Shown one piece after another: positions 13,692 to 21,436 of a stretch of DNA of 47,291 bases. Where the stretch lies: positions 1 to 47,291 of the forward strand of contig NZ_MAQA01000038.1 in NCBI RefSeq assembly GCF_001692445.1, read 5' to 3'. Origin of the DNA: Oerskovia enterophila. Its GTDB lineage: Bacteria; Actinomycetota; Actinomycetes; Actinomycetales; Cellulomonadaceae. Positions within the stretch are counted from its first letter, which is position 1. The number at the start of each line of letters is the position of its first letter. Made by a program: the position numbers and the translations under genes. Below the pieces are notes generated by a model that ran no database searches, was not told where the DNA came from, and was given only the letters and a program-made list of their open reading frames with translations.

Positions 13692-14618
13692 ATGGAACGG
13701 GCGCATCATCGAAGGGTGCTGACCCTCACCGAGAACCTGTCCGAGCAGTCCCGTGCAGCTCGCACCAAGGTCGAGGGCACCCGGCACCCCTGGCGCTACC
13801 TGGTGGCCGCGATGCTCGCGGGGGCCTACATCGGCGTGGGGGTGGTCCTCATGGTCGCCACGGCCGGGCCGTTCCTCGCGGCGGGGGCGCCGGCCGAGCG
13901 GCTCGTGGCCGGCGGAGTCTTCTCGGTCGCGCTGACCCTGGTCGTCTTCGCGGGGGCCGAGCTCAGCACGTCGGCCATGATGATCCTGACCCAGGGAGCG
14001 GTGACGCGGACGATCCCGGTGCGCTCCGCCGTCGGGACGCTGCTGTTCTGCTTCGGCGGGAACCTGCTCGGGTCCATGCTCTTCGGGTGGATGGTCGTGC
14101 AGTCGGGGATCCTGCACACCAACGCCGCCGCGGGCGAGATGATCGCGTCGATGCTCGCGGGCAAGTCGCACGAGACCGGCGGTCAGCTCTTCTTCCGCGG
14201 CGTCCTGTGCAACGTCCTGGTGTGCGCGGCGATCTGGGCGTGCGGTCGCCTCCGGTCGGAGGCCGGCAAGGCGATCGTCATCTTCTGGGCGATCTTCGCG
14301 TTCATCTCCTCGGGGTTCGAGCACGTGGTCGCCAACATGACCACGTTCAGCATCGGTCTCTTCAACCCCGAGGTGATGACGACGTGGGGCCAGTTCGGGC
14401 GGAACCTGCTGTTCGTCGGGCTCGGCAACCTGGTCGGGGGCGCGGTCGTCGTGGGCCTCGGCTACGCGGCCGTGGCCGGACGGCGCCAGGTCGCGACGCC
14501 GGACGCCGGTGCGGTCCCAGGACCGCTCCACGGGGTGGACGAGGCCGCGGAGACCGTGCCCGTGCCGATGGCCGAGGGGTCTGTCCGTCTCACGGAGCGG
14601 ACACCCCGCGGGGTCTAG
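13692..14618 (+). CDS. Formate/nitrite transporter family channel
   Basis: A 308-residue FNT-family anion channel. Six TM segments span residues ~35-260, with typical re-entrant-loop motifs FAGAELSTSAMM and FRGVLCNVLVCAAIW, an FSSGFEHVVANM-like segment (ISSGFEHVVANMTTF) and the final GLGNLVGGAVVVG helix. The FNT fold transports formate, nitrite or hydrosulfide; the sequence alone does not decide which. The C-terminal ~40 residues are an extra cytoplasmic tail. An in-frame GTG at 13717 is an alternative start. It starts 56 nt after dipZ, but no SigK-type motif lies between. Confidence 0.9.
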   Translation: MERAHHRRVLTLTENLSEQSRAARTKVEGTRHPWRYLVAAMLAGAYIGVGVVLMVATAGPFLAAGAPAERLVAGGVFSVALTLVVFAGAELSTSAMMILTQGAVTRTIPVRSAVGTLLFCFGGNLLGSMLFGWMVVQSGILHTNAAAGEMIASMLAGKSHETGGQLFFRGVLCNVLVCAAIWACGRLRSEAGKAIVIFWAIFAFISSGFEHVVANMTTFSIGLFNPEVMTTWGQFGRNLLFVGLGNLVGGAVVVGLGYAAVAGRRQVATPDAGAVPGPLHGVDEAAETVPVPMAEGSVRLTERTPRGV

Positions 14619-14744: not shown

Positions 14745-15449
14745 ATGGGCATCAGGACGGTCTCGGATCTGACGCAGGTCGACGATCCTGCGTGGCCCAC
14801 GCTCGCCCGGATGTTCCAGCGGCCCGGCGTCGAGGTCCTCGCGCCGCCGGAGTGGGCGCCCGAGGTCCTGTACCGCCTCCAGATCACGACGCGCTCGACG
14901 CTCGGGGCGCTGGCCCTCTACACCGGCGGCGTCCTGGTGGACCACGGCTGGCTCCGGCTCCTCGGCGGAGGCGCGTACGGACTCCCCGACCTCGCGACGA
15001 TCAACGGCCTGGGCACCCCGGAGGAGGGGGCCGTCGCGCCCCAGAGGCTCGTCGTCGCGTTCGACGTGCTCGGCGGGACGTTCGCGGTCAACGGCGGCGG
15101 CCTGCCCGGCCCGCTCGGGGACGTGCACTACTTCGCCCCGGACACGCTCGAGTGGCACGTCCTGGGCTTCGGCCTCGGTGCCTTCGCGGAGTGGGCCGTG
15201 AGCGGCGGGCTCGCCGAGTACGTGGCCGACCTGCGCTGGCCGGGCTGGGTCGACGACCTGGAAGCGCTCCCGCCGAGCCAGGGACTCAGTGTCTATCCGC
15301 CGTTGTGGTCGGGCCAGGGGAACGGATCGACCAAGCGCAGCCCGGTCCCGCTCGACGGCCTCGCCGCATGGCACCAGGAGCTGGGAGAACGGATGACCCC
15401 GTTCGCCGACGCGGCAGCCGAGGGAGAGACGGGCCCGGGCGTCCGCTGA
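14745..15449 (+). CDS. DUF2625 family protein
   Basis: A 234-residue soluble protein of unknown function. The family pattern is visible: LALYTGGVLVDHGWLRLLGGG, then an FDVLGGTFAVNGG strand pair, FAPDTLEWHVLGFG and the PPLWSGQ segment near the C-terminus. There is no signal peptide or membrane segment. ATG 14745 has no Shine-Dalgarno; CATGAT (14731-14736) lies 8 nt before it, so a leaderless message is possible. The last ~15 residues (EGETGPGVR end) look like a non-conserved tail. Neighbours give no functional clue. Confidence 0.8.
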   Translation: MGIRTVSDLTQVDDPAWPTLARMFQRPGVEVLAPPEWAPEVLYRLQITTRSTLGALALYTGGVLVDHGWLRLLGGGAYGLPDLATINGLGTPEEGAVAPQRLVVAFDVLGGTFAVNGGGLPGPLGDVHYFAPDTLEWHVLGFGLGAFAEWAVSGGLAEYVADLRWPGWVDDLEALPPSQGLSVYPPLWSGQGNGSTKRSPVPLDGLAAWHQELGERMTPFADAAAEGETGPGVR

Positions 15450-15566: not shown

Positions 15567-16646
15567 TCAGACGACGTCGACGTAGACGACCTCGATGGCG
15601 TTGTTGCCGTAGCCGAGCCGGTTCCACGGCGGCACGTCCGGTTGCACGTTCCCCGCTGCATCGGTCGCCCTCACGCGGAGCGTGTGGCGCCCGACCGCAG
15701 CATCCTCCCAGTCGAACGACCACTCCTGCCAGTGGTACGGGCCCGTCGGCGGAGCGAGGTGGGCCTCGCGCCACTCGCCGGCACCCGTGAGGCTCACCTC
15801 GACCCGTGCGATGGGGCCGGTCCCCGACCAGGCCTTTCCGCGCACCTCGACGGCGCCCGCGGGCACGGTCGATCCAGCAGCGGGAGCAGTGACGCGCGCC
15901 CTGACGCGCATGACGTCGACGGGCTCCGGGGCCCGGTCGGCCCACTCGTAGATGTAGTGCCCCGTCTGGAACTCGCCGACGTACGGCTCGGTCAAGACGT
16001 CGATGCGCTGGAGCCACTTGACCGACGCCACGGCATACCAGTGCGGCACGATGATCCGGAACGGCGCACCGTGGTCCTGGCCGAGGGGCTTGCCGTTCAT
16101 CTCGTACGCGATGAGGATCTCGGAGGTCGGATCGGCGACGTGCTCCAGCGGCAGGGAGCGGACGAAGTGCATGTCCTCGGTGTCGGTCTCGGCGAGGACC
16201 GCGGCCAGGTGGTACGCGCCGTGGTCAGCGCCCTCGAACCGCACGTCGACGCCGTCGACGCGCGGCCGCGCCTGTGCCAGCACCTCGTGCAGCAGAGCGC
16301 CCTTCCAGCGGGCGGTCGAGACGGCGTAGTCGCCCCATGGCTCACCGGTGGGCAGTGGACGCATCTCGAGGCGCCCGTTGCCGGCGCACTCGAGCGTGAC
16401 CGCGCGTTCGTGCGCAGGGAAGGCCCGGAGGTCCTCGAGCGTGAGGGTCAGCGGGTGCTCCACCGCGCCGCCGATCTCGAGCCTGCCGTCGTGCTCGGGC
16501 AGCGAGAAGTTGCTGCGCACGTAGTGGAGCTCGGTCGGGGTGATCTCCTCGGTGAGCGCCGCGGGCGGCGCCTCCGCGTTGTACGGCGCTGGGTTGATCA
16601 TCTGCAGCGCGGCGCGCGCACGGATGACTTCCTCGGGAATCGTCAT
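15567..16646 (-). CDS. Sulfite oxidase family molybdopterin enzyme
   Basis: A 359-residue Moco enzyme. The SUOX fold is recognisable: FSLPEHDGRLEIGG, then VTLECAGNGR with the molybdenum-coordinating cysteine (about C87), WKGALLHEVL, the DHGAPFRIIVPHWYAVASVKW core, and a C-terminal Ig-like Mo-co dimerisation domain (VTAPAAGSTVPAGAVEVRGKAWSG... onward). Unlike most bacterial homologues it has no Tat signal or heme domain, so it should act in the cytoplasm. The electron acceptor and substrate are unknown. It is last in a five-gene operon with a DyP peroxidase, 25 nt behind the hydratase gene, with GAGGAGG before the ATG. Confidence 0.88.
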   Translation of the reverse strand: MTIPEEVIRARAALQMINPAPYNAEAPPAALTEEITPTELHYVRSNFSLPEHDGRLEIGGAVEHPLTLTLEDLRAFPAHERAVTLECAGNGRLEMRPLPTGEPWGDYAVSTARWKGALLHEVLAQARPRVDGVDVRFEGADHGAYHLAAVLAETDTEDMHFVRSLPLEHVADPTSEILIAYEMNGKPLGQDHGAPFRIIVPHWYAVASVKWLQRIDVLTEPYVGEFQTGHYIYEWADRAPEPVDVMRVRARVTAPAAGSTVPAGAVEVRGKAWSGTGPIARVEVSLTGAGEWREAHLAPPTGPYHWQEWSFDWEDAAVGRHTLRVRATDAAGNVQPDVPPWNRLGYGNNAIEVVYVDVV

Positions 16647-16671
16647 GGCTCTGCCTCCTCGTAGGCCGGGT

Positions 16672-17538
16672 TCAGTAGTCGGCGTCTCGGAAGACCGGGT
16701 CTCGGCCCTCGTTGAAGGCTCCGATGCCCTCGATGCGGTCGGGGTGCACGGCCGAGCGCCAGTGCGCGTCCATCATGATGGCGATCGCCTGCTCCACGGG
16801 CTGCCCCTCACCGAGCTGTACGGCCCGCTTGACGGCTTGGACCGCCGTCGGGGAGTTGCTGGCGATCTTCTCCGCGATCCGAGCGGACGCGGCCGCCAGG
16901 TCGTCCTGGTCGTGGACCTCGTTGACCATGCCGAGCCGGTGTGCTTCGGCCGCGGAGATCGGGTCGCCGGTCATGAGCATCTGCAGTGCCCTGCCCGGCC
17001 CGAGCAGGCGTGGCAGGAACACCGGGGAACCGCCACCGGCCGAGAGGCCGAGCATCGCCTCCGGCTGCCCGAACGTGGCGTTCTCGGAGGCGATGATGAA
17101 GTCGCAGCTCTGGGCGAGCTCGCACCCGCCGCCATAGGCGATGCCGTTCACGGCGGCGAAGAGCGGCTTGCGCAGCTGCCGCACGGTGTACAGCGTTCGA
17201 TCGAAGGCCTGGCGCTGGCGAAGCCAGTCCTCCTTCGTCATGCTCCTGCGCTGTCGGAGGTCGCTGCCGACGGAGAACGCGCGCTCGCCGGCGCCCGTGA
17301 GCACGACGACGCGCACGGCGGTGCGCACGGCGATCGTCTCGACGATCTCGGTCAGTCGAGCACCCATCTCGGTCGTGATCGCGTTGTCGGCGTGCGGCCG
17401 GTTGAGCGTGACCACGGCGATCTGGTCGTCGTGCTGGTACTCGACGAGGACGGAGGACTCGGGTTCGGGGGCGTCTGCGGCCGGCGGGGCGAAATCGAGA
17501 GCCTCCCAGCGGTCGGTACCCTCGGGGGTCGTGCTCAT
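16672..17538 (-). CDS. Enoyl-CoA hydratase/isomerase family protein
   Basis: A 288-residue crotonase-fold protein. The CoA-binding/oxyanion-hole elements are present (AFSVGSDLRQR and NGIAYGGGCELAQSCD), and both catalytic glutamates of true hydratases are kept in position (in GGCELA and FGQPEAMLGL). A 30-residue N-terminal extension precedes the fold. The start overlaps the DyP gene stop (ATGA), so the two are co-translated. Its association with a peroxidase and a molybdoenzyme is unusual for a beta-oxidation enzyme, and the physiological acyl-CoA is not evident. Confidence 0.88.
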   Translation of the reverse strand: MSTTPEGTDRWEALDFAPPAADAPEPESSVLVEYQHDDQIAVVTLNRPHADNAITTEMGARLTEIVETIAVRTAVRVVVLTGAGERAFSVGSDLRQRRSMTKEDWLRQRQAFDRTLYTVRQLRKPLFAAVNGIAYGGGCELAQSCDFIIASENATFGQPEAMLGLSAGGGSPVFLPRLLGPGRALQMLMTGDPISAAEAHRLGMVNEVHDQDDLAAASARIAEKIASNSPTAVQAVKRAVQLGEGQPVEQAIAIMMDAHWRSAVHPDRIEGIGAFNEGRDPVFRDADY

Positions 17539-18905
17539 GGCGTGCTCTCCTCGGTCGAGACGGAATGCGGCAGCTCAGCCAGCCAACGCATGGCCGAGAG
17601 GCTCGGGGCGAAGCAGTACTCGCCCCCACGCGTGATCACGAACGGCGGAAGGTCCTGCAGGCGGCGTCGGATCGGTCGCCGGGGGATCGTGAAGGTGCTC
17701 GCGTGGTGCGAGGAGCCGACGATCGGGTCCGCTTCGCCAGGGGCACCGATGAAGATCCCGTCGTTGAGCCACTGGGTCTTGACGAACTCGAACTGCCGCT
17801 TGATGTGGGCGCCGGCGAACACGAAGATGATGCCGCGGTCTGCTCCGTCGTCCTCCAGCTCGCCGTCGGGGAGCATCGGGCCGTAGCTCGTGCCGCGCCG
17901 GATCATGCGGTGCAGGCGCACGTCCGTGCTGCCGTCGTCGGCGAGCGCGTCGCGCGGGTTGGCGCGTCGTGCGTGGGCGCCGACCGGGCACTTGAAGCCA
18001 CGAGGGTCGTCGCCGTAGAGAAAGACGTTGTTCCGCTGCGGATCGCTGCCGAGCTCGGGGTCGTCGACGTCGGGCGTCAGGGCCAGCGGGGCTCCGCTCT
18101 GCCAGCGTCCGACCATCTTCGCGCCGAGCAGCGCCTCCTCTTCACGGTTCGTCGCCCGCGCGCGGAGGTACTGCCGGTAGGCCGCCACCTTGGTGTGCAG
18201 CTTCCGGAAGACGACGTAGGTGCCGTTGCGGCCCAGGATGTCGGGGCTCGGCATCGGCGGCAGCCCGCCGGTCTCGTCGGGATAGCCGAGGATGATCTCG
18301 CCGGCCTTGAGCGGCGGTTCGTGCGGGTTCGACGGCGCCCTGCCGCTGCCCTCGACGGCCGGCTGGCCGATCCCGTCCTTGAAGCCGAACGAGGTGCGCC
18401 CGGTCGGGAGCTGGTAGCAGTCCTGCCGCCAGACGACCGAGATGCCCGCCAGCTCCTGGTGGGCGAGGCGAGCCTTCTCGGTGACGGCCTCGAGGCGGGC
18501 GACGTCGGGGGAGATCACCGCGATGGCGATGTGGACGTCGGGAGTGCCGAGCGGCTTCTCCCAGTTCTCAGGACTGCTCTCGCCGACGTCTCCCAGGTGC
18601 TCCGCCCGCGCGGCCATCCCTTCACGGAACTCCGGCGCGAAGCTGTCGAGGGAATCCTGAGGAACTCCGAGCGCCTTCAGCCCGTGGTAGGTGAACGCGA
18701 CGGTGAACCAGGCGTCGTTGGCGGGATCGAGCGACTGCGTCCCCGAGCTCACGAGGGCTGTCAGCCGCCGGACGAGCTCACGGCCGTCGGCGCGGTCGTC
18801 GATGCGCAGCATCAGGTAGGCGCCGACATAGGGGGAGGGGCGCTCGTGCAGGGCGCCACTCTGGATGTCATCGAGCTCGAGCGTGACGCTCCCCGTCTCA
18901 GCCAT
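17535..18905 (-). CDS. DyP-type heme peroxidase
   Basis: A 456-residue dye-decolorizing peroxidase. The hallmark GXXDG motif is GFKDG near residues 174-178, with the distal aspartate. The proximal heme-ligand histidine is in CPVGAHARRANPRDA (about His312), followed by RRGTSYGPML and the late IIFVFAGAHIKRQFEFVKTQW region. There is no Tat signal and no encapsulin-targeting tail (ends VSTEESTP), so a free cytoplasmic enzyme is expected. At 456 residues it belongs with the long DyP classes. It lies 2 nt after the DUF4331 stop and overlaps the enoyl-CoA hydratase start. The natural substrate is unknown. Confidence 0.92.
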   Translation of the reverse strand: MAETGSVTLELDDIQSGALHERPSPYVGAYLMLRIDDRADGRELVRRLTALVSSGTQSLDPANDAWFTVAFTYHGLKALGVPQDSLDSFAPEFREGMAARAEHLGDVGESSPENWEKPLGTPDVHIAIAVISPDVARLEAVTEKARLAHQELAGISVVWRQDCYQLPTGRTSFGFKDGIGQPAVEGSGRAPSNPHEPPLKAGEIILGYPDETGGLPPMPSPDILGRNGTYVVFRKLHTKVAAYRQYLRARATNREEEALLGAKMVGRWQSGAPLALTPDVDDPELGSDPQRNNVFLYGDDPRGFKCPVGAHARRANPRDALADDGSTDVRLHRMIRRGTSYGPMLPDGELEDDGADRGIIFVFAGAHIKRQFEFVKTQWLNDGIFIGAPGEADPIVGSSHHASTFTIPRRPIRRRLQDLPPFVITRGGEYCFAPSLSAMRWLAELPHSVSTEESTP

Positions 18906-18907
18906 GC

Positions 18908-20047
18908 TCAGTGGTGCTCCGGCTTCTCTGGCGGACGGGGGTTGGGAGCCGAGAGGTACGGGAAGGTCTGCGAGGCCGGCCGGGACGAGCCGTCCACCCC
19001 GTCGCGGATGATCGGTCCGTTGCCGGCGTTGATCAGCGTCGTGAAGAACACGTCCATCACGTCGTCGTTGATCGTGCGCCCCCCGCAGGTCGCGTGGGCT
19101 CGTCCCCTGCGAGAGGCGAGCTCGATCTCGAGGAACGAACCCTTCTCCTGGTAGGGCTTGGAGAGATCGATGACCAGGTAGTCGGCGAGCACGAGCTCGG
19201 TGAGCGGATGGACGCCGTCGTTCGTCGGCCAGTCGGTCTTGCCGTCGAGGCTGTCCCAGAACGCGAGGTTGGCGTCGAGCCGTGCCCGGTAGGCGCCTTC
19301 GTAGCCGTGCTGGATGTGGAACGCGTCCTCCATGTTGTAGAGGTCGCGGATCTCGAGGTCCTGGTTGATCCGGTCGAACTGCATCGGCCCGAGCATCAGG
19401 TTCTTCACCTCGGGTCGCCCGACGCGCTCGATCCGGACGTTGAACACGCCGCGCGTCAGTGTCTCGGCGACGACGCCGACCAACGTGGCGCCGCCCAGCA
19501 GCGCAGGGTCGATCTCGACGACCAGTCCCAGGACGTTCTTGCCGTCCATGTAGATCGAGCCGCGTTCCGCGAAGGCGAGCTCGCCGATCGCGACGGTCTT
19601 CAGGGCCGCGGGGGCATCGAGGATGAACGGGTCCCAGCGCGCACCGGCGAAGACCCGCACGCCGTGCGCGGAACCGCCGTCCTCGTCGTTGACGCGGAAC
19701 GACACGGTCTCGCCGGAGGGGGTGGTGCAGGTGCCCTCCTGCTCGAACGGCTGGCCGTCGACGCTGGTCGGGGGAGAGAAGACGCAGTCGAACACGAACT
19801 CCTCGGCGCCGTGCTCCGGGCCGGCGGAGAACGGGGCGTGGTCGCCGGGCACGGCTGCCGTGAGGGGCCGCACCCGGAACCGGTAGATCAGGCCTTCCGA
19901 GAGGGCGTCGGAGATCTTGGCGAACGGCAGGGTGTTCATCACGAGAACGAGGTGCTGCGGCCGGTCGGGGCTCGGGAACGCGAAGACGTCGGTGATGTCG
20001 GCGATCGAGTTGGCCAACGCCCGCGGGCCCGAGATGTGATCCGACAC
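18908..20047 (-). CDS. DUF4331 family protein
   Basis: A 379-residue protein of unknown function. The DUF4331 opening is clear (ISGPRALANSIADITDVFAFPSPDRPQHLVLVMN), followed by YRFRVRPL and the late NRLGYPL-type region, here PTNDGVHPLTELVLADYLVIDLSKPY. Unlike most family members it has no signal peptide, so it is predicted to be cytoplasmic. GTG 20047 is 5 nt after the preceding stop, giving tight operon spacing. In this operon it is paired with a DyP peroxidase 2 nt downstream, which suggests a partner or substrate-handling role; that is inference. Confidence 0.85.
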   Translation of the reverse strand: MSDHISGPRALANSIADITDVFAFPSPDRPQHLVLVMNTLPFAKISDALSEGLIYRFRVRPLTAAVPGDHAPFSAGPEHGAEEFVFDCVFSPPTSVDGQPFEQEGTCTTPSGETVSFRVNDEDGGSAHGVRVFAGARWDPFILDAPAALKTVAIGELAFAERGSIYMDGKNVLGLVVEIDPALLGGATLVGVVAETLTRGVFNVRIERVGRPEVKNLMLGPMQFDRINQDLEIRDLYNMEDAFHIQHGYEGAYRARLDANLAFWDSLDGKTDWPTNDGVHPLTELVLADYLVIDLSKPYQEKGSFLEIELASRRGRAHATCGGRTINDDVMDVFFTTLINAGNGPIIRDGVDGSSRPASQTFPYLSAPNPRPPEKPEHH

Positions 20048-20052
20048 CGGTG

Positions 20053-20583
20053 TCAGTCTCCGGCCTCGTCGAGGAGCGGCTGGAGTGCCGGATGCTGCAG
20101 CGCGGCCGCGGCGTCGGGGTGATCGAGCACCTTCTGGAAGGCCGCGTTCACGCGCTGCGCCTTCAGGATCTCCTTCACCGTGCCGGGGTAGTTGCGTGCG
20201 TAGGCGGCGGCACGCTCCTGCGCTCCGAGGATGAACGCCTTCTCGGTGGCGAGGTCCGGCAGGCCGTTGTAACCCTCGGTGTGCCTGAAGATGAGGTCGA
20301 AGAGCGCGAGCGTCGGGCCGGAGTTGAAGAAGTCGTCCATGTAGGCGTCCCAGGGACCGTCGAAGCTGGTGATGAAGGCGAGTCGCGTGTCGTCGTCGAA
20401 GAGCACGAATCGTGCCTCGTGAATCGTCTTGATCGCCATGCCGTAGTCGCCGGGAAGATACCCCGGGGTCTGTTGCAGGTCGTCGAGCGCTGCCCGGAGC
20501 GGCTCGCTCTGGCCGGGCTTGATGTGGAAGAACAGGCTGAACTCACTCGTGGGTCCGACGCTGCGGCCAGTAGCTGTACTCAC
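20053..20583 (-). CDS. Predicted alpha/beta-barrel protein of the DyP operon
   Basis: A 176-residue protein and first gene of the operon. GTG 20583 follows GGAGGAG. The first half (EFSLFFHIKPGQSEPLRAAL, then IHEARFVLFDDDTRLAFITSFDGPWDAYMDDFF) resembles the ferredoxin-like dimeric alpha/beta-barrel domains found beside or fused to peroxidases. The second half is helical (AFILGAQERAAAYARNYPGT...). There is no signal peptide or TM segment. I do not recognise a named family with certainty; a small heme- or lipid-related accessory protein is possible. A 140-nt region with a GntR-type palindrome separates it from the divergent regulator. Confidence 0.75.
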   Translation of the reverse strand: MSTATGRSVGPTSEFSLFFHIKPGQSEPLRAALDDLQQTPGYLPGDYGMAIKTIHEARFVLFDDDTRLAFITSFDGPWDAYMDDFFNSGPTLALFDLIFRHTEGYNGLPDLATEKAFILGAQERAAAYARNYPGTVKEILKAQRVNAAFQKVLDHPDAAAALQHPALQPLLDEAGD

Positions 20584-20686: not shown

Positions 20687-20696
20687 TTGTATACAA
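20687..20696. promoter_or_regulatory. GntR (FCD-type) operator palindrome
   Basis: TTGTATACAA is a perfect 10-nt palindrome and unusually AT-rich for the region. It lies 30 nt upstream of the GntR start and about 104 nt upstream of the divergent operon start. FadR/FCD-type regulators commonly bind such TNGTATACAA-like sites, so it probably autoregulates gntR and may control the minus-strand operon. Confidence 0.65.
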
Positions 20697-20725: not shown

Positions 20726-21436
20726 ATGCCCAGCGCCCCGACGACGTCGTCCCCACCGCGCGACGAGCCCCTCGCCGCCGTCCGCCGACAGTCCGGCGCG
20801 CGCGCGGTCTACGACCTCCTGAGGGCCCGGATCATCGACGGCACCCTCGCTGCAGATGCACGTCTCACCGAGCCCGTGCTCTCCTCTCAGCTCGGGGTCA
20901 GCCGGACCCCCGTCCGCGAGGCCCTGCGTCTCCTCCAGGCCGAGGCGCTCGTCGTCGAGCAGCCCACGGGGGGAGTGCGCGTGGCACCGCTCGCGGTCAC
21001 CGACCTCCACCGCGTCTACGACGTCCGCGCCCGTCTCGAAGGGCTGCTCGCGCGGGACGCGTGCGAACGCGCACGGCCTGCCGACGTCCAGCACCTCGCT
21101 CGCCTCGTCGACCTCATGGACGCCGTGCGCGACCACGAGGACGAGGTGCTGCGCATCGGCGCCCAGTTCCACGGCGAGATCGAGTCGCTCGCCGACAACC
21201 GCTGGTGCTCCGAGCTGCTGCGCCAGATCCGTGGGCACGTCGACCGCTACCGCTCGCTGTCCGCGCGCGAACGCGTCGGGACGACCGACCATGTCGACGA
21301 GCACCGCGCGGTCGCCCGCGCCATCGCGAGCGGTGACCCGGACGCGGCCGAGCGCTCCATGCGCGAGCACATCGAGCGCAGCGCGGCCATGGCCGCCAAG
21401 GCCCTGGGCGAGGCGCCGCCACCGCCACCCGGCTGA
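20726..21436 (+). CDS. GntR family regulator (FadR/FCD subfamily)
   Basis: A 236-residue transcription factor. The N-terminal winged helix-turn-helix (AVYDLLRARIIDGTLAADARLTEPVLSSQLGVSRTPVREALRLL, about residues 30-75) is followed by an all-helical FCD effector domain with metal-ligand-type residues (the DVRARLEGLLA and AQFHGEI segments and DEHRAVARAI...MREHIERS). FCD regulators sense small organic acids. It is upstream of and codirectional with prpDBC (123 nt) and divergent from the DyP operon, so either or both may be targets. ATG 20726 is chosen from the domain boundary; no good Shine-Dalgarno precedes it. Confidence 0.9.
   Translation: MPSAPTTSSPPRDEPLAAVRRQSGARAVYDLLRARIIDGTLAADARLTEPVLSSQLGVSRTPVREALRLLQAEALVVEQPTGGVRVAPLAVTDLHRVYDVRARLEGLLARDACERARPADVQHLARLVDLMDAVRDHEDEVLRIGAQFHGEIESLADNRWCSELLRQIRGHVDRYRSLSARERVGTTDHVDEHRAVARAIASGDPDAAERSMREHIERSAAMAAKALGEAPPPPPG

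Follow-up and report, generated by a model that had tools for sequence, protein, structure and literature searches.

A recurrent five-gene redox cluster of Oerskovia enterophila and the pairing of its class C/V DyP-type peroxidase gene with that of a small BARREL protein

What could hold a haem peroxidase, a molybdoenzyme and a crotonase together with two further proteins in one compact gene cluster? The question is raised by contig NZ_MAQA01000038.1 of Oerskovia enterophila (assembly GCF_001692445.1), the whole 47,291 nucleotides of which were analysed and are called the window here. Five of its genes (Table 1) follow one another in the order BARREL, DUF4331, DyP, ECH and SUOX, with gaps of 5, 2, -4 (an ATGA overlap) and 25 nucleotides, and from this spacing they are probably transcribed together. 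A sequence-only reading of this DNA had given the coordinates, strand and spacing of the genes correctly, and its identification of the DUF4331, DyP, enoyl-CoA (coenzyme A) hydratase and sulfite-oxidase proteins is borne out by Pfam and NCBIfam profiles. It had also remarked on missing secretion signals, and none of the five proteins has a hydrophobic, signal-like N-terminus (judged by hydropathy, not by a signal-peptide predictor). As to its remark that it knew of no described system of this kind, we recognised the set in no paper of the open PubMed Central literature searched.

Table 1. Positions of the five clustered genes and of two adjacent features in the window
Feature	Coordinates	Strand	Remarks
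BARREL	20053..20583	minus	176 residues, GTG start, AAGGAGGAG ribosome site; unclassified family; partner gene of class C DyP
DUF4331-family protein	18908..20047	minus	PF14224 E 4.7e-25; divergent subgroup without signal peptide
DyP-type haem peroxidase, class C/V	17535..18905	minus	TIGR01413 above cut-off; DyP_N
ECH, enoyl-CoA hydratase (crotonase)	16672..17538	minus	PF00378 (ECH_1) E 3e-56
SUOX, haem-free sulfite-oxidase-family molybdoenzyme	15567..16646	minus	PF00174 (Oxidored_molyb) E 1.3e-48; PF03404 (Mo-co_dimer)
GntR/FCD regulator, divergent	20726..21436	plus	PF07729, PF00392; probable local regulator in the genus
TTGTATACAA perfect palindrome	20687..20696		divergent intergenic region; only copy in the window

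We are almost certain that the five genes are a real conserved unit. The sequence-only reading had staked its case on their recurring together in other genomes, and they do: a scan with a DUF4331 alignment of genome contigs from 84,980 species gave 116 relatives, and 31 of the 80 loci kept carry BARREL-DUF4331-DyP-ECH-SUOX in the window's order on one strand, mostly in actinobacteria. By title, the hosts include Arthrobacter, Leifsonia, Microbacterium, Kribbella, Nocardioides, Terrabacter, Jiangella, Occultella, Actinomycetospora, Paractinoplanes, Streptomyces and Solirubrobacter; the set is also present on two Chloroflexi and one Acidobacteria contigs of metagenome-assembled genomes (MAGs), which are short, so that misbinning is possible. 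The same order was seen in four separately found loci from four genomes (L012-L015), two of them from the same genus, with L014 probably the same contig as L050 and the BARREL of L015 cut by the contig end. Spacing is -4 to 83 nucleotides in 24 of the 26 loci in which all open reading frames (ORFs) were parsed, and the remaining two have one longer overlap each, due to the start codon chosen. An Arthrobacter sp. OVS8 locus (L080:8468-13474), excluded from the 31, holds all five genes with the frames of DUF4331, DyP and SUOX broken, as pseudogenes or assembly errors.

Because these 80 loci were selected through DUF4331, a second sampling, of 396 genomes of the phylum, was made independent of it. 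A search for DyP (E 1e-40) gave 14 matches in 13 genomes, and BARREL adjoins DyP in 11 of the 14 (the window included in both counts), two of these BARRELs being weak (E 7e-16 and 6e-9); one of the 14 matches is cut by a contig edge, yet stands with ECH and SUOX. A search for SUOX in the same genomes matched 67 of them. Among the best 30 loci, which were retrieved, all three with at least 71% identity (window included) adjoin ECH and DyP, whereas none of the 27 with 49% identity or less adjoins any of the other four genes within flanks of at most 1.5 kb each. This contrast, together with the recurrence in 31 of 80 loci, rules out chance clustering. Within the genus, the DUF4331 gene is present in three of seven genomes, and both carriers other than the window's hold the whole operon.

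Conservation of this kind could also arise if five enzymes acting independently were held together by shared regulation and lateral transfer, as a co-regulated stress set. The spread is indeed patchy (the DUF4331 gene in 3/7 genomes of the genus, the operon-type SUOX in 3/396 of the phylum) and a regulator was seen only in the genus, but the fixed order, the short gaps and the parallel divergence of the genes at identities to the window of about 60-90%, as well as the adjacency of DyP and DUF4331 in Rhizobiales (in some cases with a different molybdoenzyme) and in Chloroflexi, make us consider such a set unlikely.

Pairwise protein distances of the five, compared over 28 loci (27 with all five ORFs parsed, and the window), correlate at r 0.73-0.86, with 0/999 permutations as high for each pair. 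Shared ancestry alone would yield such correlations, which thus speak for joint inheritance rather than for interaction. On a DyP tree of 41 rows (40 hand-picked sequences and the window, with partner labels set by presence in the locus and partly mixed), the 12 five-gene rows are one clade with support 100/99, and the catalase-family and DUF4331-only labels change six times each; L074, with its DyP in a catalase-family cluster divergent from DUF4331, was labelled DUF4331, and L018, with a catalase-family gene about 3.5 kb off, as pair only. Among the 80 DUF4331 loci SUOX is present in 32, with ECH there every time, and the sole other ECH match (L075) is distant (29%); DUF4331 stands without DyP in 12 loci, some of them on short contigs. 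We take BARREL-DyP to be the older core, whose catalase-family and DUF4331 partners have been swapped and to which ECH and SUOX were joined a single time.

BARREL itself has no Pfam or NCBIfam match. In its family alignment R58, Y81 and D84 are invariant in 45/45 members, and at position 55 there are 34 His and 10 Arg. Five of the 45 match ABM (dimeric alpha-beta barrel) weakly (best E 0.0019), 15 match Pectate_lyase22 equally weakly (best E 0.011), and PDB profiles match BARREL only at E 0.06 or worse, so that the barrel-like nature named by the sequence-only reading is no more than a candidate; no solved relatives of note were found for BARREL or DUF4331. An origin of BARREL as a split-off DyP domain is unsupported (profile comparison probability 0.4%). 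By profile, the BARREL-DyP pair is also found in Deinococcus, Nostoc, Acinetobacter and alphaproteobacterial plasmids, and Rhizobium/Mesorhizobium loci without a BLAST-visible BARREL prove to have a divergent one beside DyP. Sets of a catalase-family gene, BARREL and DyP occur on alphaproteobacterial plasmids, in one Rhodococcus, in Acinetobacter and in D. radiodurans. On several plasmids, relatives of the pair lie near 3-hydroxyacyl-CoA dehydrogenase, acyl-CoA dehydrogenase, oleate hydratase, thioesterase or patatin genes, which gives indirect support to the pathway for a lipid- or aromatic-derived CoA thioester that the sequence-only reading had put forward as a possibility. Some loci have two or three BARREL genes (L095:4491-6319, L062, L066, L078), and the 12 kb Acinetobacter lwoffii plasmid pALWED3.4 (L114:1039-8524) has ssuD near BARREL, DyP, catalase-family and 3-hydroxyacyl-CoA dehydrogenase genes.

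The peroxidase of the window scores above cut-off with TIGR01413 (Dyp_perox_fam; 121 against 100.5 bits) and PF21105 (34.4 against 27.5). Its distal Asp D177 (GXXDG), distal Arg R267 and proximal His H311 are invariant in 28/28 sequences, and the last Gly of GXXDG, retained in the window, varies in 6/28. The nearest solved relative is DrDyP of Deinococcus radiodurans (8re3/8re2, E 4.4e-132), assigned to class C/V (PMC10820274, in excerpt). The same excerpt says that class B/C DyPs are generally predicted to be cytoplasmic, and the remark of the sequence-only reading that many DyPs are exported thus misfits this class, while its interpretation of one conserved, cytoplasmic-looking unit stands; a missing signal is unusual for DUF4331, not for the class of the window's DyP. 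DrDyP, crystallised alone, was inactive at pH 7.5, its physiological substrate being given as unknown, and the authors speculate that it may be controlled by proteins with which it interacts (PMC10820274, in excerpt).

Such a protein may be encoded next to it. On the D. radiodurans plasmid record NZ_OV024759.1 (L111:3203-7429) the order is 3-hydroxyacyl-CoA dehydrogenase, BARREL, DyP and catalase-family gene, with the BARREL homologue directly upstream of DyP and annotated merely as a hypothetical protein. Like the window, the cluster of DrDyP (DR_A0145) thus has a class C/V DyP (46.5% identical) beside a BARREL homologue (E 6e-49), together with the catalase-family and dehydrogenase genes; unlike the window, it has no DUF4331, ECH or SUOX by profile within 11.3 kb. 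The structural study dealt with DyP only, and its excerpted text holds no mention of BARREL that we found (PMC10820274).

The frequent catalase-family neighbour raises the possibility, in which we have little confidence, of a detoxification unit, with DyP-BARREL and SUOX shielding the cytoplasm from peroxides (including acyl hydroperoxides) and from sulfite, and the crotonase clearing damaged unsaturated acyl-CoA, outside any dedicated metabolite pathway. The six changes each of the catalase-family and DUF4331 labels on the DyP tree, and the SHOCT/PLDc_N, DUF6325 and LuxR-AAA genes that flank some five-gene loci, would agree with this; ordinary catalases would however suffice for removing hydrogen peroxide, a haem-free SUOX would produce it rather than remove it, and five genes in constant order suggest a more specialised function. 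For DRA0146, the catalase homologue of D. radiodurans, a lack of catalase activity is reported (PMC7247583, in excerpt), which speaks against simple removal of hydrogen peroxide and leaves room for another peroxide.

Whether SUOX could be a source of peroxide depends on its electron acceptor. Compared with chicken sulfite oxidase (E 1.8e-47), it has the Oxidored_molyb and dimerisation domains, with the molybdenum-binding C87 invariant in 24/24, and R44, R92, W104 and Y231, likewise invariant in 24/24, align with four of the five sulfite-pocket residues of the chicken enzyme (R138, R190, W204, Y322 and R450). No haem domain matches, and the N-terminus is not signal-like, which is unusual since most bacterial sulfite dehydrogenases bear a signal. 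A molybdenum-cofactor synthesis family is matched twice in the genome, which encodes one PF00174 protein besides SUOX. The sulfite dehydrogenases SorA and SorT, which are exported and cytochrome-linked, belong to the same family (NCBIfam E 2e-55 and 3.5e-46), but SUOX lies far under their equivalog cut-offs (187.9 of 600 and 157.8 of 570 bits) and is not counted as a member. The plant (Arabidopsis) sulfite oxidase (1ogp, E 1.3e-37) is, like SUOX, a haem-free molybdenum enzyme inside the cell, peroxisomal whereas SUOX looks cytoplasmic. Sulfite oxidases without the haem domain pass electrons to oxygen, giving superoxide and then hydrogen peroxide, and the plant enzyme uses oxygen and forms hydrogen peroxide (PMC10574614, in excerpt); by analogy, oxygen is a candidate acceptor of SUOX. 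A cytoplasmic haem-free SUOX encoded with a peroxidase suggests an internal source of hydrogen peroxide.

ECH shares with crotonase and enoyl-CoA hydratase the ECH_1 domain and both catalytic glutamates (E140 and E160, invariant in 24/24, presumably equivalent to E144/E164 of the rat enzyme); none of the 25 NCBIfam models among the matches listed reached its cut-off. It differs in having its own N-terminal extension ahead of the ECH domain (window 17428-17538), with the motif RWxALDF, in which R10, W11 and F16 are invariant in 24/24 and which is possibly a docking segment.

SUOX in 32/80 loci, always with ECH, would also agree with organosulfur catabolism, in which the crotonase would free sulfite from a sulfonated acyl-CoA, SUOX would oxidise the sulfite, and DyP-BARREL would dispose of or exploit the hydrogen peroxide. 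The crotonase superfamily does include dehalogenase and methylthioacryloyl-CoA hydratase branches, SUOX keeps R44, R92, W104 and Y231 aligned to the sulfite pocket, ssuD lies near BARREL-DyP-catalase-family on the Acinetobacter plasmid, and sulfatase-clustering genes are near 3/33 five-gene loci. Against it, the crotonase retains the two glutamates of a true hydratase, and the recurrent flanking clusters, only some of which were identified, showed us neither a sulfonate transporter nor a CoA ligase; we think this route improbable.

The DUF4331 protein, on whose family we found no paper in the open PubMed Central literature searched, scores 89.1 bits against the Pfam gathering score of 27, whereas 29 sampled canonical members score about 475-548 bits and mostly bear a signal (a signal-like start in 27/29; the sample is 29 of the 30 best-scoring loci, L194 being dropped at a contig edge). 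What the two groups share is the predicted processed N-terminus. In the window it would be Ser-Asp-His, there being no in-frame start codon upstream; D3 and H4 are invariant in 53/53; the operon-type ORFs begin M-[S/A]-D-H in 75/78 and in the other three a signal-like segment precedes S-D-H (L080 and L082 were left out of this count, and L044 has no parsed DUF4331 ORF). Canonical members would show S-S-H in 29/29 after predicted cleavage or removal of Met. Processing is thus predicted to leave both exported and non-exported DUF4331 proteins with the start NH2-X-X-His, a newly noted pattern that in sequence matches the amino-terminal copper and nickel (ATCUN) site, which is a free N-terminus with X-X-His, His being at position 3. 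An Ntn-hydrolase-like N-terminal Ser is disfavoured because 12/78 ORFs have Ala there. An AlphaFold2 model of the window's protein has a mean pLDDT of 90.1, with residues 1-12 below 50.

DUF4331 also occurs in sets with a TPR gene, in Streptomyces, Anaerolineales, Acidobacteria and Rhizobiales. On two rhizobial plasmids, BARREL, DyP and DUF4331 with an SRPBCC-type tail are accompanied by TPR, cytochrome c and xanthine-dehydrogenase-type genes, the last placing another molybdoenzyme family near DyP-DUF4331 there. The tail of these rhizobial DUF4331 proteins (L023:9001-10509, L024:9001-10500) is a C-terminal Polyketide_cyc2 (SRPBCC-type) domain, and proteobacterial DUF4331 proteins of similarly greater length are found in L099, L100, L102, L103 and L105-L107. 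L103 and L107 are MAG contigs with DUF4331-TPR loci that are labelled Bordetella parapertussis, a species label that looks doubtful.

We propose, as our preferred explanation but with no more confidence than we give the detoxification unit, that all five genes share one origin and function as a single unit, elaborating the wider DyP-BARREL two-gene module. In this mechanism the class C/V DyP would work with BARREL as a dedicated small partner; the cytoplasmic haem-free SUOX would oxidise sulfite and pass electrons to oxygen, giving superoxide or hydrogen peroxide; and BARREL-DyP would spend this peroxide in oxidising a hydrophobic (lipid- or aromatic-derived) substrate. DUF4331 would be a metal-binding partner through its processed Ser-Asp-His N-terminus, as an ATCUN-type copper/nickel site, and the crotonase would hydrate an alpha,beta-unsaturated CoA ester on the same route. 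A further reading, rather doubtful in our judgement, joins two ideas: that class C/V DyP is half of a two-protein enzyme in which BARREL sets the substrate or switches on the DyP haem, and that the DUF4331 family consists of proteins with an N-terminal copper (ATCUN) site, signal peptidase generating the X-X-His end outside the cell and methionine aminopeptidase inside it. BARREL as the missing partner would explain why DrDyP, studied alone, was inactive at neutral pH, and in this operon DUF4331 would tie the chemistry of copper to that of haem and molybdenum within a single cytoplasmic route of oxidation.

Several points weigh against the mechanism that we propose. No BARREL lies within 1.5 kb of two of the 14 sampled DyP matches, both at the divergent end of the sample (39-40% identity), and DrDyP, the nearest DyP to have been studied, shows no activity at pH 7.5. 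SUOX is absent from 48/80 DUF4331 loci, so the core does not need it; chicken R450 aligns with its L344 (beside an invariant R343), hence its anion pocket is not identical to that of the chicken enzyme; and its acceptor could be a cytochrome or a flavoprotein. The X-X-His of DUF4331 may serve folding or partner contact rather than metal, and an in-frame start codon does lie upstream in 23 of the 75 ORFs that begin M-[S/A]-D-H. The joint divergence may mirror nothing more than shared inheritance, and each flanking family is confined to at most 8 of the 33 five-gene loci compared.

The physiological role of DyPs has been described as an open question, and class C as unexplored (PMC10820274, in excerpt). 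A BARREL gene that recurs beside such DyPs in several phyla, in one case beside a DyP of known crystal structure, makes the role of this partner directly testable, and the N-terminal X-X-His gives DUF4331 a testable biochemical hypothesis. The five-gene unit is a compact set for studying haem, molybdenum and CoA chemistry together, and its recurrence in many distantly related soil bacteria points to a shared redox task.

The GntR/FCD regulator gene (Table 1) adjoins the operon in L012 and L013 and was not found in L014 or L015. The palindrome TTGTATACAA, a plausible operator of GntR/FCD type, also lies 113 bases upstream of BARREL in L012; in the 31 loci L030-L060, the 250 bases ahead of BARREL showed no copy. 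Conservation of the regulator with the operon is therefore rejected: GntR was seen only in the genus, and the palindrome only in the window and L012 among the loci scanned.

Flanking genes are likewise rejected as members of the unit on the 8/33 count given above, which was made with a rough gene caller on loci some of which are short. The representatives identified (SHOCT/PLDc_N, MFS, DUF6325, LuxR-AAA and sulfatase genes) seem to belong to the local surroundings; a possible stress-gene neighbourhood of SHOCT/PLDc_N, DUF6325, LuxR-AAA and sulfatase-type genes is seen upstream of BARREL in L043, L050, L055, L056 and L060, and in the flanks of L038, L047 and L054. In the window, a formate/nitrite-transporter gene (13692-14618, plus strand) and a DUF2625 gene (14745-15449, plus strand) converge on the operon, and homologues of both lie beside it in the congeners L012 and L013.

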